Shown in pieces: positions 11,851-18,350 of a DNA stretch of 42,903 nucleotides (the first letter of the stretch is position 1; each line of letters opens with the position of its first letter). The position numbers were made by a program, and so were the translations under genes. The stretch lies in IMG/VR virus record IMGVR_UViG_3300036845_000213, positions 1 to 42,903 of that record. One strand, 5' to 3'. This DNA is from a virus. The notes beneath the pieces were generated by a model. That model saw only the letters and a program-made list of their open reading frames with translations. It was not told the origin of the DNA and made no database searches.

Positions 11851-12455
11851 TGAGCAACTATCTTGGCGTTGACCCAAACAGTTTACGCTCGATTGTCCGT
11901 CAGTGGATGCCGGGCGGCTACGAGTGGCCGGCCAACGATACGGCTCTTTTCCCCATGCCGGCCGGGATGAACAATCAGTCCCACGCCAATCAAAACTACA
12001 CGCTTTCCGGGCGACCGGATTTGCAATCGATGACCGACGCGGGGCTGCTGCAACATCATCATTACACGGCTAGGCAGCACATGGGGAAGCAAGGCGATTA
12101 TACGCCTAGCCCCGAAAACGACCGCAGCATCGCGACCGGCAACCGCGAACTGGAAGAACAGCGGATGCACCTCGCCAGCCGTGGGATCACTTCGCCATAC
12201 GAAGATGATTGGCATGTCCTGACATGGCCGCCGGGGGAACACGTTCCGTGGGAGGAAGCGGGAAAGCGGGCGATGGCGATGGACCCGATGACGGACTTCG
12301 GCTACCGTCAGCCCTCCGTCAACGCCAACGAGCCGCCAAGGGGCATGTCAACCCCGCCCCGCGTACCGGAGCCGGAACAGCCGCGAACCCGCGATTTGTC
12401 GCACGATAAGCTTTTCAAACCAACGAACGATAATGAGCCTCAAGATACCGAGTAA
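11850..12455 (+). CDS. Hypothetical virion-region protein
   Basis: A 201-residue protein with many His, Gln and Pro (LQHHHYTARQHMGKQGDYTP; later VPEPEQPRTRDL) and no membrane or signal segment. The family is not recognised. ATG 11850 overlaps the upstream stop as TGATG. It overlaps the portal gene by 23 nt, so the two are probably translationally coupled; a minor head protein is the likeliest guess. Confidence 0.65.
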   Translation: MSNYLGVDPNSLRSIVRQWMPGGYEWPANDTALFPMPAGMNNQSHANQNYTLSGRPDLQSMTDAGLLQHHHYTARQHMGKQGDYTPSPENDRSIATGNRELEEQRMHLASRGITSPYEDDWHVLTWPPGEHVPWEEAGKRAMAMDPMTDFGYRQPSVNANEPPRGMSTPPRVPEPEQPRTRDLSHDKLFKPTNDNEPQDTE

Positions 12456-14169
12456 GCCGGGCTTCCTTGAATTGTGGATCAAGGAAGTGATCGATGAATG
12501 TATGGCCTCGTCCACGGAACGCGGAATGATTTACACCCGCGCCGGCCAATATTATTACACCGGGGCGATGGACAGCCGCGCGTCCTTGTTCAACAAGATC
12601 GGGCCGTTCGTGCGCAAACTCAGCGGCTTCCTCATGCAGCCGACCGACGTGCGCTTTCAGTTGACATACGACAGCGGCGAGGATGACGACGTGCTTGAGC
12701 GCTCGCAACTCGTTGGCGAGAAGCTGTCCGCCGATTTTCGCACGGTTGACGCCGACACGCTGTTCTCGGAAGCGGTGACGTGGGGCCTCATCAATGGTTG
12801 CCAGTTGTTAAAGGTTTTCCCTGACGAAGATAGCGGCACTTTTCGCATCGGCCACGTCCATCCGCAGAACTTCGGCGTCTTGAGCGAGACAACCTTGGCG
12901 ATTGACGAACAAGAAGCCATGTGTCATGTGAGTTATCCGACAAAATCCAAGCTGCGCACCATGCTCGTGGACCATCCGCAATACGAGCGGATCATGGCCG
13001 CGCTTGACGACGAACCGGGGCCTGACCGTGACCAAGAAGAACCAACATATTTCCATCAGATGGTTGTTGGAGGGCTCCAGCCCTTGGGAGATGTCGGAGA
13101 CGCCCCAAGCTCCGCCGCCGGCATCGTCAATGTGTTCCCTGTTCCGACCCCATGGCGTCCCCAAAGGCGATTTGCGCCAACCGTCAAACTCTGTGAAGTA
13201 TGGATCAAGGACCGCGACCGGCACGATGACTGGACGACAATTCAAACGATTTACGGGGCCGAGCCAATCATCATCGAAGGCGAACAAACCCGCCGCAACC
13301 TTTCCCGCGTCCCCGGTAAAACGCCATTCGTAAAGGTCCAAGGCCAGCCGACGCCCGGATACTTTTGGGGGCGTTCGATCATTGCCGATGTACAGATGTT
13401 GCAGGATATGCTTAACAAGCGGCTCCGCGACATCAAAGTCATGTGGGATCGAAATGTTAACGCGCCACAAGTCTTTTCAGGCTTTACGAGTGTGTCGGAG
13501 GAACAGTATTACAAGATCGTCAACGAGGGCGGCTTCATCAATGATCCGAACCCTAATGCTAAGGCCACAAAGCTACTGGACCCTCCGCCGGAAAATTATC
13601 TCGATGAATTGGAATTCATTTTCAAACTCTTCGATGAGGCGAGTGGTTTTTCTCCGATCATGTCGGGGCAGGGCGAAAGCGGCGTTAGAACCGGCGTCCA
13701 TGCTCAGACCCTCGTCCGCACATCCTCGCCGCAACTCATCGACCAAGCCAGCCGGATCGAGCGCCAGCTAGCCGACTGCGGCTACCTCGCCATCCGCGTC
13801 ATGCAGGCGATGGACGCCTTGATTTACACCACGGCCGACAGTAAAATAGAGTTTCTACTTTCCCAACTTCCGGAAAATTTCCAAGTCGAGGTTGACAGCC
13901 ATTCGGCGTCGCCGGCTTTCGCGGAAGATAACCGACAGGTGGCCATCGCGCTCGCAAGGGCAGGGGCCATCGACGCGGAGGACTTGGTTCACATGCTGCA
14001 TCCGCCCGGCGCTCAGTTGCTTCTCGCGCGGCTCCGCCAGCGGCAGAAGGCGCAAGCCAAACAGGCGCAGGAGGATAAGCAAGAGGACCTTGTTAAATCC
14101 CTCATCGGCGTTGGCGGCGGAGGCGGATCGAGGAAGCCCAAGGGCAAGGCTGGACAGTCCGTCCACTGA
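12433..14169 (+). CDS. Portal protein
   Basis: A 578-residue protein with typical portal features: an N-terminal helical start, FNKIGPFVRKLSGFLMQPTD, a wing region with PFVKVQGQPTPGYFWGRSII and VQMLQDMLNKRLRDIKVMWD (stem), and a long C-terminal helix region (ARLRQRQKAQAKQAQ) ending in a Gly-rich basic tail. The dodecameric portal forms the DNA channel at one capsid vertex. Its position after terL and before the capsid genes is standard. I place it in the podovirus portal group without assigning a subfamily. Confidence 0.9.
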   Translation: MSLKIPSKPGFLELWIKEVIDECMASSTERGMIYTRAGQYYYTGAMDSRASLFNKIGPFVRKLSGFLMQPTDVRFQLTYDSGEDDDVLERSQLVGEKLSADFRTVDADTLFSEAVTWGLINGCQLLKVFPDEDSGTFRIGHVHPQNFGVLSETTLAIDEQEAMCHVSYPTKSKLRTMLVDHPQYERIMAALDDEPGPDRDQEEPTYFHQMVVGGLQPLGDVGDAPSSAAGIVNVFPVPTPWRPQRRFAPTVKLCEVWIKDRDRHDDWTTIQTIYGAEPIIIEGEQTRRNLSRVPGKTPFVKVQGQPTPGYFWGRSIIADVQMLQDMLNKRLRDIKVMWDRNVNAPQVFSGFTSVSEEQYYKIVNEGGFINDPNPNAKATKLLDPPPENYLDELEFIFKLFDEASGFSPIMSGQGESGVRTGVHAQTLVRTSSPQLIDQASRIERQLADCGYLAIRVMQAMDALIYTTADSKIEFLLSQLPENFQVEVDSHSASPAFAEDNRQVAIALARAGAIDAEDLVHMLHPPGAQLLLARLRQRQKAQAKQAQEDKQEDLVKSLIGVGGGGGSRKPKGKAGQSVH

Positions 14170-14185
14170 GGGATATTTTCCGCGC

Positions 14186-14692
14186 ATGTCTATGGCTTTC
14201 GGTGGCGGCGACCCGACAAACGACGACCCCTCGATGGGGCAGGGCGGCGGCGCTCCACCTCCACCCGGCAGCGCTCCACCATCGCCCGGCGGCGGCGCTC
14301 AAGGCGGAGGAGGGCCGGGGCCGGGCATGATGGCTTACGCCCGATCACGCATGGGGCCACAAGTCTCAGCGCCCGGACCCGGCAACCAAGCCGACAGCAT
14401 GAACAAGATCATCCAAGCCATCAACCTCTTGAAAGTCGCGGGCTTGGGATTGTCGCCCGGCGACAAGCTGCACGCCGACGTGTTCAAGACGATCCAAACC
14501 CTCTCGCGCCATATCGGCGGCGCGGCCGGCATGGGACCCGCCGCTGGCATCCAAAAAACGATGATTGGCGACCAGTTGCGCGATACCGTCAAGAACATGC
14601 TCTTGTCGCGGATCATGGGCCAGAAAGGCCAGCAAAAGCCCGGCGCTCCACCAGATGCGCCTATGCCCTCGACCCCCTTGCCCGGTTCGTGA
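14186..14692 (+). CDS. Hypothetical protein downstream of portal
   Basis: A 168-residue protein. The first 55 residues are Pro/Gly low complexity; then comes a helical core (MNKIIQAINLLKVAGLGLSP ... FKTIQTLSRHIGGAAG) and a Pro-rich end. ATG 14186 is chosen because it follows the portal stop; the frame is open upstream only as an out-of-frame overlap with the portal gene. A similar low-complexity-plus-helical plan occurs in the other virion proteins of this phage. Confidence 0.65.
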   Translation: MSMAFGGGDPTNDDPSMGQGGGAPPPPGSAPPSPGGGAQGGGGPGPGMMAYARSRMGPQVSAPGPGNQADSMNKIIQAINLLKVAGLGLSPGDKLHADVFKTIQTLSRHIGGAAGMGPAAGIQKTMIGDQLRDTVKNMLLSRIMGQKGQQKPGAPPDAPMPSTPLPGS

Positions 14693-14731
14693 TAACACCT
14701 CTCGCCCAATTTTCAGGGCGTGGAGCGAAAA

Positions 14732-15304
14732 ATGAACAAACTTCTCATGAGCGCGGCCTTTTTGGCCTTTTCCGTCACGGCGAGCGCGGCGGGGACCGTA
14801 ACGGTGACGGACTTCACCGCCGACGCGGCGGGCGTCACCGCTAACCCGTCAAGCGACCTCGCGACAGCGACCTCCGTTGGCGTCACGACATGGACCGTCG
14901 CGGAAGTGGTTGACAGCATCGGCGGCCTCGTCAACGGCGATGTTTTGACGATGACCAATCCGCTTTCGACCTCGATTGGCTCGCTCATCACCATCTCATG
15001 GGACGGCGGCTTGTTCCACGACGCGACCACGACCTCCGGGGTCAGTTTCGTCGGTGACGAACTTGATCTGACCGGCGATGGCGCGTTGTTTGGCCCCGGC
15101 GTCCCTCTCGGCACGGTTGGCGTCCTCGATCTGTCATTCACCCAAGCGGGCGGGGCCGGCGACCTCATCAGCGGCAGCGGCAGTTTCACCGCTACAAACT
15201 CGATCCCGGAGCCATCGACTTGGGCGATGTTGCTGATCGGGACGGGCTTCCTCGCCATGTTCGCATCGCGTTCACGAAAGCGTGATAATCCGGGCATTGC
15301 CTGA
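14732..15304 (+). CDS. PEP-CTERM secreted protein
   Basis: A 190-residue protein with an N-terminal signal peptide (MNKLLMSAAFLAFSVTASAA, cleavage near 19-21), a Thr/Ser/Gly-rich beta domain, and a C-terminal PEP-CTERM tripartite signal: PEPSTWAM at 159-166, a hydrophobic helix at about 165-178, then the basic SRSRKR at 179-184. In bacteria such proteins are exported by Sec and processed by an exosortase. The phage carries no exosortase that I can see, so a host enzyme must be used. GGAG lies 6 nt before the ATG. It lies amid virion genes, between portal and endolysin. Origin from a host gene is likely. Confidence 0.85.
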   Translation: MNKLLMSAAFLAFSVTASAAGTVTVTDFTADAAGVTANPSSDLATATSVGVTTWTVAEVVDSIGGLVNGDVLTMTNPLSTSIGSLITISWDGGLFHDATTTSGVSFVGDELDLTGDGALFGPGVPLGTVGVLDLSFTQAGGAGDLISGSGSFTATNSIPEPSTWAMLLIGTGFLAMFASRSRKRDNPGIA

Positions 15305-15331: not shown

Positions 15332-15805
15332 ATGCCGTTTGTTTCTGGTTTTTTACGCATCCGAAAGAAAGGCCACCCCGATCAGGGCTTGCCACCCGGC
15401 GAGGGCGAGACTGACCCGGACTATGGGGTTGAGGTTCCCGGCGCACCGGACATCGGTTTGCCGGAGCCGCCTCCGGGCATCTGGCCGCCGCTCACCCCCG
15501 ACAACCCGTGGCGTCCACTGCCCGAGCATCCCATCGCGCCTACTCCGGGACACCCAATCGCGCCCGGAGGCGGCGGCGAGCATCCTGAACATCCCATCGT
15601 TCTGCCTCCCGGCACAGTCTGGCCGCCTCTGCCGGAAGGCGTTCATGGCAAGTATCTAGCCCTCGTCCTCATCGGCGGCGGCGGGCATGGCGCTCACTAC
15701 CGCTATGTCGTAATCGACGCGGACGCTTATCCCGACCAAGGCTTGCCGCCCCACCCGGATCAAGGCCTGCCGAACCCGCCGACCGCGCAACCCCGGCGAA
15801 ACTGA
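15332..15805 (+). CDS. Pro/Gly-rich 'PDQGLP' repeat protein
   Basis: A 157-residue protein. PDQGLP occurs four times (once near the N-terminus, three close to the C-terminus with small changes). In between lie EHPIAP/GHPIAP/EHPIVL repeats and two xxWPPL segments. A conserved short core, GKYLALVLIGGGGHG then YRYVVIDADAYP, is probably the folded part. I have seen this layout in phages of alphaproteobacteria, without known function; a virion or fibre-associated protein is possible. GGAGG at 9 nt fixes ATG 15332. Confidence 0.7.
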   Translation: MPFVSGFLRIRKKGHPDQGLPPGEGETDPDYGVEVPGAPDIGLPEPPPGIWPPLTPDNPWRPLPEHPIAPTPGHPIAPGGGGEHPEHPIVLPPGTVWPPLPEGVHGKYLALVLIGGGGHGAHYRYVVIDADAYPDQGLPPHPDQGLPNPPTAQPRRN

Positions 15806-15808
15806 AAC

Positions 15809-16339
15809 ATGACCCCGGCAGAGTGGAGACAAGTCCTCGCCATCATCGAACCACGTGGAAAGTCGTGGATTTTGGACGGGCTTGCCGACGCCATGCCGGG
15901 GTTAGTCGAAACCTACGCAATCAACACAGCCACGCGCCAACAGCATTTCCTCGCGCAACTGGCGCATGAGAGCGATCACTTTCAGACGACGCGCGAGTAC
16001 GCCAGCGGCAAGGCTTACGAAGGCCGGAAAGACCTCGGCAACACGCAAAAGGGCGACGGCGAGCGGTTTCGCGGGCGTGGCCTCATTCAGTTGACGGGGC
16101 GGGCGAACTACACGAAAGCGGCGCAAGCGCTTGAACAGCCGTTTGTCGAGAACCCGGACTTGGTTGAGAAATTTCCCGCCGCCGCCGTCGTGAGCGGTTG
16201 GTTTTGGGAGACACATGGGTTAAACCAGCTTGCCGACAAGGATGACGTGACCTTGGTCACACGCCGAGTGAACGGCGGGCTGAATGGCCTCGCCAGCCGC
16301 AAGGTGGCCTTGGCCAACGCCAAGACAGCGATTGGGTGA
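15809..16339 (+). CDS. Endolysin, glycoside hydrolase family 19 (chitinase-like)
   Basis: A 176-residue peptidoglycan hydrolase. The catalytic acids of the GH19 fold are visible as E54 in LAHESDHF and E71 in YEGRKDLGN, and RFRGRGLIQLTGRANY (87-101) is the substrate-groove motif. There is no signal peptide, so it needs a holin or similar for release; candidates are at 41644-41964 and 30556-30942. It starts 3 nt after the previous stop. It would cut the glycan strands at lysis. Confidence 0.92.
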   Translation: MTPAEWRQVLAIIEPRGKSWILDGLADAMPGLVETYAINTATRQQHFLAQLAHESDHFQTTREYASGKAYEGRKDLGNTQKGDGERFRGRGLIQLTGRANYTKAAQALEQPFVENPDLVEKFPAAAVVSGWFWETHGLNQLADKDDVTLVTRRVNGGLNGLASRKVALANAKTAIG

Positions 16340-16786: not shown

Positions 16787-17329
16787 ATGCCGCGCAACAT
16801 CTCGGATGAGGAATACGCTTTCCTACAGAACAAGCGGATGACCGCCGACTTCGTTGAGAGCATCTATAACGATCCGCAACTCAACAAGGAGGCCAAGCGC
16901 CTCATCAAGCGCAAGTATCCCACCCTGTCAATTCCCGACTATGACATGGAGGAAAAGCTCGATCAGCGGCTAAAGTCCGAAGATGAAAACAAGCGCAAGG
17001 CCAATCAAGAGGCCGAAACTCAGCGCAGCCAGAAGGCTTGGAACGACAGCCGCGTTAAGGCGAAGAAAGATTATGGCCTTACCGACGAAGGCCTGACCGA
17101 TCTGGAAAAGTGGATGGAGGAACACGCCGTAGCCGATCACGAGGTTGCCGCGAGCTACCGTCATTCGAAAAACCCGCCTACGTCAACCCCAACCTATGAC
17201 AGCCAGCTTTGGGGCCACGAAAAGGCGGACAACTTCAAAGAAATTTCTGCCGACCCAGAAGCGTGGGCCAGACGGGAAATCTTGGGCGCAATCCACAAGG
17301 ACAGTGAGCGCCAACGCGGTATGAGGTAG
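16787..17329 (+). CDS. Putative scaffolding protein
   Basis: A 180-residue highly charged helical protein with a predicted coiled region (EEKLDQRLKSEDENKRKANQ) and no membrane segment. The call rests on position directly before the major coat gene, composition and size, which fit phage scaffolds that guide coat assembly and leave the prohead. No sequence family is recognised. The ATG follows GGAGCTAACCC, a ribosome site like that at 10009. Confidence 0.6.
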   Translation: MPRNISDEEYAFLQNKRMTADFVESIYNDPQLNKEAKRLIKRKYPTLSIPDYDMEEKLDQRLKSEDENKRKANQEAETQRSQKAWNDSRVKAKKDYGLTDEGLTDLEKWMEEHAVADHEVAASYRHSKNPPTSTPTYDSQLWGHEKADNFKEISADPEAWARREILGAIHKDSERQRGMR

Positions 17330-17333
17330 GTCT

Positions 17334-18350
17334 ATGCCACAGCTTGGGGCCGGAATTATCCCCTCGGGGCCAATCGGCCTTGAGTTGGAAGCGACTGTGC
17401 GGCGAGTATTCGCCCAAATGGTCGTCATTTTGATTTACAAGCAAAATCCGCTTCTGGCGCTTTTGCTTCGTAACGCAATTCGTGCGTCAGGCGGCGTTTC
17501 ACCCTATACCCAACCCGTCCAGACCGGCCAGTACGTCCAGTCAAGCTGGATTGGACCGGCCGGGCAATTCAACTTGCCCCAAGACGTGGCCGCGACCGTC
17601 AACGCGGAATTCAACATGTGTTGTCTGGCGACGCCGGTTTCGTCGCTTGGCTTGGAACAGCTTGTGACGCAAGACGCCATTGCGGTGGCGAGCCGTCTGA
17701 TGCTCAAGCTCAACGACCTTAAAAACTCCTCGTTGCAGGCTCTCTCGTCGGCCCTCTTTGGCCCGGCGACCGCGAACGTTCTGCAAATGTATTCGCTCAC
17801 CGACGCCTACGGGACAACGACCCCCTACGGCGGCTTGGCGAGGACCGGCGCGAGCGGCTACCCGGATTGGGCGGGCCTCTCGATCCCGGCGGCGGGCGAC
17901 ATCCTGACCCGCTCCGCGTTCATTCCCAACATGCTCGCGGCGGTCAAGAACGCGGGCGGCGAAGCGCTCGATTTCGTCGTCATGAGCGTCGAGGACTGGA
18001 CGACCCTCCTGACCGACTTCATGGCGGTCGAGCGCTACAACAACGATCCCTCAAGCCGGTGGGGAAAAGATGACCCTGTTAATTCTGGTTTTAGGGGTTT
18101 GCTGCTTGGTGACACTCCGCTATTTTTTGATCTGAACTGCCCGGTGGGGACGGCCTATGGGTTTAATTCCAAGTACATCACGTTGGTTGTCCACGAGGAC
18201 GCCAATTTCGCGTGGACCGGCTGGTATTCGACCATTCCGCAAGGCCAGATCGCCAGCGTCGGCTTATCGCTGACTGCGCTCAATCTGGTTTGCTCCAAGC
18301 CGTCAACCGGCGTGATTATTGATGGCATCACGGGAGGAGCGCCCTTCTAG
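17334..18350 (+). CDS. Major capsid (coat) protein
   Basis: A 338-residue protein. The central part LSIPAAGDILTRSAFIPNML ... FVVMSVEDWTTLLTD and the C-terminal NSGFRGLLLGDTPLFF ... YGFNSKYI are the segments I recognise from HK97-fold coat proteins of podoviruses. These correspond to the P-domain helix and the beta strands with a D-T-P-type turn. It would form the icosahedral shell. It lies 4 nt after the scaffold candidate. No decoration or cleavage site can be seen. Confidence 0.85.
   Translation: MPQLGAGIIPSGPIGLELEATVRRVFAQMVVILIYKQNPLLALLLRNAIRASGGVSPYTQPVQTGQYVQSSWIGPAGQFNLPQDVAATVNAEFNMCCLATPVSSLGLEQLVTQDAIAVASRLMLKLNDLKNSSLQALSSALFGPATANVLQMYSLTDAYGTTTPYGGLARTGASGYPDWAGLSIPAAGDILTRSAFIPNMLAAVKNAGGEALDFVVMSVEDWTTLLTDFMAVERYNNDPSSRWGKDDPVNSGFRGLLLGDTPLFFDLNCPVGTAYGFNSKYITLVVHEDANFAWTGWYSTIPQGQIASVGLSLTALNLVCSKPSTGVIIDGITGGAPF

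Follow-up and report, generated by a model that had tools for sequence, protein, structure and literature searches.

An optional, exchangeable phage gene coding for a PEP-CTERM protein and its possible display by the host exosortase

Exosortase/PEP-CTERM export is a large sorting system of environmental Gram-negative bacteria, most of whose cargo is without known function. Within it, PEPxxWA-CTERM proteins (NF035944) and exosortase XrtV (NF035943) are partners. Phages have their own surface proteins for superinfection exclusion, the lipoprotein Llp of T5 and the Cor-type proteins, which are encoded by morons and use other anchors, e.g. lipoprotein signals. The established model for PEP-CTERM proteins comprises Sec export, processing by the exosortase and release to the surface or the exopolysaccharide (PMC1569441), with support in cyanobacteria (PMC12188702). 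In viruses, a survey of hot springs lists the TIGR03118 family, which has a putative exosortase-interaction domain (n = 13), as acquired from cells (PMC11003980); this is a different protein family from the one described here, and it is dealt with in a single sentence of a gene-transfer survey, without follow-up there. No description of phage PEP-CTERM proteins was found in the open-access literature (most subscription journals and bioRxiv preprints lie outside that search), in line with the preliminary description of the present locus, which knew of no phage reported to use the exosortase system. The tag and the idea of phage surface morons are known; their combination and a recurrent phage gene class built on it are apparently new.

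The window analysed here is a complete IMG/VR virus record of 42,903 bases from a soil phage. Its PEP-CTERM gene (Table 1) starts with ATG and has a codon usage that resembles the one of the phage core genes. Residues 1–21 of the product (MNKLLMSAAFLAFSVTASAAG) resemble a Sec signal peptide and its carboxyl terminus is IPEPSTWAMLLIGTGFLAMFASRSRKRDNPGIA. The protein matches Pfam PF07589 with 31.9 bits (E 1.2e-7; gathering cut-off 20.7) and TIGR02595 with 22.6 bits (cut-off 16), the latter reaching 26.4 bits when the entire record was searched; TIGR02595 has no match in any of 14 control genomes. It shares the PEPSTWA box with the PEPxxWA-CTERM proteins but scores 26.4 bits with NF035944, under the cut-off of 35, and thus falls outside this subtype. 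The AlphaFold model, computed with eight orthologues (mean pLDDT 69), features a helix at residues 3–13, a beta-rich region at 20–157 and a second helix at 161–185. The assignment as a phage PEP-CTERM protein, put forward in the preliminary description, is upheld by the two profile matches; sequence and model agree with the signal peptide that was predicted there. Like the bacterial proteins of the PEP-CTERM/exosortase (EpsH) system (Haft 2006, PMC1569441), the phage proteins combine a predicted signal peptide, a single PEP box at the carboxyl terminus, a hydrophobic helix and a basic cluster with diverse ectodomains. They differ from that system in being encoded by phages that have no exosortase, nearly always by one gene per phage, in the exchange of the gene as a cassette, and in ectodomains with no close relative found among the bacterial matches listed.

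Table 1. Features of the PEP-CTERM gene and of the genes around it in the window
Feature	Position	Strand	Basis or remark
PEP-CTERM protein gene	14732..15304	+	190 aa; PF07589 and TIGR02595 above cut-off; orthologues occupy the same slot
Shine-Dalgarno GGAG	14722..14725	+	6 nt upstream of ATG; sequence
Predicted signal peptide, residues 1-21	14732..14794	+	sequence; model helix 3-13
Beta-rich ectodomain (family A1), residues 22-156	14795..15199	+	model; dN/dS 0.34
Sorting box PEPSTWAM, residues 159-166	15206..15229	+	sequence and PEP-CTERM profile models
Hydrophobic helix and basic cluster RSRKR, residues 167-184	15230..15283	+	sequence; model
Small inverted repeat CGCCC-N8-GGGCG	14703..14720	+	immediately 5' of the Shine-Dalgarno; sequence
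Portal protein	12433..14169	+	phrog_156 E 5e-5; upstream border of slot
Conserved small ORF between portal and slot	14186..14692	+	in all lineage relatives; matches no family
Pro-rich PDQGLP protein	15332..15805	+	recurrent neighbour of phage PEP-CTERM genes
Endolysin, inside slot	15809..16339	+	phrog_181 E 6e-54
Conserved ORF, downstream border of slot	16787..17329	+	conserved among relatives
Major capsid protein	17334..18350	+	phrog_9953 E 3e-16; query for unbiased survey

The gene lies in a slot delimited by the portal gene and the small ORF that follows it on one side, and by a conserved ORF and the capsid gene on the other. In the window the slot is filled by the PEP-CTERM gene, the PDQGLP gene and the endolysin gene, in this order, so that the earlier placement between portal and endolysin genes stands, with one small ORF intervening on the upstream side and the Pro-rich ORF on the downstream side. 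Other genes identified are those of a terminase (phrog_2) and of tail fibre proteins, while the right half of the window codes for an exonuclease, an Erf-like annealing protein and a helicase. Searches of the record for a tyrosine integrase and for tRNAs found none, and no exosortase (PF09721) was found in it either, as had been stated in the preliminary description. The PDQGLP family, rich in proline and carrying repeated PDQGLP-like motifs, has no match in Pfam or PHROG; homologues are encoded at many viral loci (e.g. L199, L176, L195), and in 34 of 50 PDQGLP-bearing loci, belonging to several phage groups, its gene is found at most 400 nt from the PEP-CTERM gene. The surface protein may have the PDQGLP protein as a partner.

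A survey free of selection for the PEP-CTERM gene was obtained by fetching relatives with the capsid protein alone. All 80 loci retrieved have the portal gene upstream, and 32 of them code for a PEP-CTERM protein in the portal–capsid slot: 9 with an ectodomain of family A1 (the one of the window), 12 of family A2 and 11 of family A3 (L261 and L264 among them). No PEP-CTERM protein was found anywhere in the remaining 48 records. Note that several loci are near-identical and the counts are therefore of contigs, not of independent events. In a maximum-likelihood tree of portal plus capsid, L248 (no PEP-CTERM gene), L249 (A1) and L250 (A2) group in a single clade, L243 (A3) is sister to L183 (A2), L263 (A3) is nested inside an A2 clade, and L251 and L255, both without the gene, cluster with L252 and L257 (A1). 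Ectodomain types have thus been exchanged repeatedly among very close phages, and the PEP-CTERM gene is a swappable, optional phage cassette, present in some relatives and absent from others at the same site, as is characteristic of a moron. In some relatives without the gene, ORFs that by sequence resemble HNH endonucleases are found in the slot (L251 8350–9440, L270 8284–8730, L277 8596–9012, L301 5396–5797), identifying it as an insertion hotspot.

Orthologues of the window protein, at 53–99% identity, are encoded at the same position and have all three parts of the protein. A search of IMG/VR with this protein found 91 relatives, of which eight, near full length, belong to phages of the same lineage. 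Many others match in the tag only and represent separate recurring ectodomain families, among which are A2 (LQIEVFDNG; more than 60 contigs), A3 (ENIGS / EDIGS) and A4–A5 (LQLSI / TALTLWN). When the ectodomains alone were compared by HHalign, A4 and A5 were found to be related (98% probability) and no homology was detectable among A1, A2, A3 and A4. Fold searches with the A1 ectodomain gave nothing under E 1e-3, and those with A2 gave two weak matches (TM ~0.3, from a model of pLDDT 64) that point to no informative fold. The third residue of the box varies in some members, which have PEA, PES, PET, PEL or PEI instead of PEP. An A2 member encoded by L218 (1339–1998, same contig as L266) carries the hydrophobic tail VPGPVVGAGLPG in place of PEP-CTERM, and another sorting tag may therefore substitute for it.

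In A2, the largest family, the ectodomain is under strong purifying selection, with a median dN/dS of 0.11 compared to ~0.32–0.33 for signal peptide and tail, and its mean identity is 88%, followed by 85% for the PEPSTWAM box, 57% for the signal peptide and 38% for the helix plus basic tail. A box that is kept together with a helix conserved in hydrophobicity and charge only is the pattern expected of a sorting tag. All parts of A1 have a dN/dS near 0.33–0.38.

PEP-CTERM-bearing contigs of IMG/VR number more than 100 and are distributed over about a dozen gene-sharing communities plus singletons (Louvain communities, defined with non-overlapping ORFs, some of which may be pieces of one lineage). 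The phrog_2 terminase is present in 19 of 42 tested records, and in several communities the PEP-CTERM gene has phage replication, portal or head genes as neighbours. The genes flanking A2 are unrelated from lineage to lineage. Each of 49 viral records tested scores above the PEP-CTERM cut-off, in nearly every case with exactly one gene, and none codes for an exosortase (PF09721); as the records were picked for carrying the gene, their copy number and lack of an exosortase are the only informative results. The exceptions to single copy are L068 (record G451), with five PEP-CTERM genes, and L060 (G447), with two, whose records may include host DNA. Searching 50,697 phage records by tblastn with the A1, A2 and A3 ectodomains, an A4 member and the consensus tail gave no match. 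The nearest capsid and terminase of the named-phage set are ~35% identical and belong to Manatee Spring records, which are uncultured and hence point to no host. No cultured representative of these soil phages was found.

When 84,980 species genomes were scanned with A1, proteins sharing the tail were found in Bradyrhizobium, Sphingomonas, Roseiarcus, Phenylobacterium and others, with no close full-length relative among the matches listed. The A2 protein has no match in 398 genomes of the Roseiarcus order and 248 of its family, searches that were run without a positive control genome, and the phage capsid protein gave only partial noise of 25–30% in the 398 genomes of the order. Among candidate Alphaproteobacteria with similar tails, 11 of 14 genomes carry exactly one exosortase. 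The five candidate exosortases examined all score best with XrtV, two above its cut-off and three below, a further likeness to the PEPxxWA-CTERM/XrtV pair, and XrtV is sporadic in the Roseiarcus family (2 of 99 genomes). A tetranucleotide ranking of hosts was set aside: it placed Roseiarcus first, but at r = 0.52 and with unrelated phyla intermixed. XrtV-bearing Alphaproteobacteria are candidate hosts only, composition being non-decisive. A genome titled Frankia sp. RB7 codes for a PEP-CTERM protein that is, by eye, almost identical to those of Bradyrhizobium (L086, L096, L107, L115); this record may be mislabelled or contaminated.

On balance these data somewhat favor that the gene is a mobile, optional phage moron whose product is displayed by the host exosortase, with masking of a receptor or of exopolysaccharide as its most likely function. 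After Sec export, the C-terminal helix would keep the protein anchored in the inner membrane and PEPSTWAM would face the periplasm, where an exosortase of the host (in the candidate Alphaproteobacteria, one resembling XrtV) would recognize and cut the tag. Such processing is likely. The beta-rich ectodomain, once cleaved off, would reach the outer surface or the exopolysaccharide layer. There it might bind and mask whichever receptor or exopolysaccharide serves competing phages, or progeny that re-adsorb to debris, leading to superinfection exclusion, a masking role that is proposed tentatively. That unrelated ectodomains have repeatedly been exchanged on the same tag, and that close relatives can do without the gene, fits a specificity trait of this kind. 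Against the overall reading stand the lack of a capsid match in the 398 genomes of the Roseiarcus order, the rarity of XrtV in the Roseiarcus family, the want of an informative fold match for the ectodomain and the PEA, PES or PET found in place of PEP in some members. As with Llp of T5 and the Cor-type morons, these are small exported phage proteins, optional and variable among close phages; the anchor is here an exosortase tag and exclusion is a proposal only. The presence of such genes in many unrelated phages suggests a widespread, apparently undescribed remodelling of the infected-cell surface. It is plausible, although this goes further, that the host exosortase serves a widespread, hitherto undescribed class of morons as display platform and that unrelated ectodomains, swapped onto one conserved tag, coat the infected cell and set exclusion groups among phages of soil Alphaproteobacteria. 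If so, phage takeover of the surface would extend from lipoprotein anchors to exosortase anchors, and phages loading varied proteins onto the tag would offer a limited set of cargo proteins, open to testing and with a strong selective reason to exist.

The main alternative, which is unlikely but not negligible, is that the displayed protein alters host exopolysaccharide, aggregation or adhesion to favor phage spread or host survival rather than to exclude phages. The bacterial PEP-CTERM/exosortase system is linked to exopolysaccharide, floc and biofilm formation (PMC1569441; PMC12188702), and the exosortase gene of MAG palsa_929 adjoins one that reads as a polyprenyl glycosyl-phosphotransferase. 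However, for a phage in which no integrase was found it is harder to see how the host would benefit in the long run, and frequent swaps of unrelated ectodomains suit a specificity trait better than a common matrix function.

Decoy, passive cargo and lysis roles fit less well than surface display in view of the points against each. A decoy occupying the host exosortase and blocking export of host PEP-CTERM proteins, which the conserved recognition box and variable helix would suit, is improbable: the ectodomain, for which a pure decoy would have no need, is the most constrained part of A2. Even less probable is that the phage picked up a host gene by accident and has no use for it. The bacterial similarity among the matches listed is to the tail of ordinary PEP-CTERM proteins only, as this explanation would have it, but no close bacterial relative of the ectodomain was found (among the matches listed for A1), the gene is under purifying selection, its codon usage is phage-like, and it recurs in many phage groups, nearly always in single copy. 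The suggestion in the preliminary description that a host gene had been picked up accordingly gives way to that of a class of phage genes that recurs and is swapped between phages. A lysis protein is equally improbable: the nearby endolysin gene and a predicted layout that in outline resembles a unimolecular spanin (export signal, beta-rich periplasmic domain, C-terminal helix) are outweighed by the lack of a lipobox cysteine (no A1 or A2 member has a Cys before residue 36), the restriction of the endolysin in the slot, among relatives, to the near-identical L002, and the location of the PEP-CTERM gene next to replication genes in other phage groups.

A scan for promoter consensus sequences found no clear one directly upstream of the PEP-CTERM gene. 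Terminator-like hairpins are found immediately 5' of the Shine-Dalgarno of PEP-CTERM genes in several unrelated phage groups (L212–L214, L199–L209, L171–L172 and L182), as is the small inverted repeat of the window, and possibly act in attenuation or in stabilization of the mRNA.
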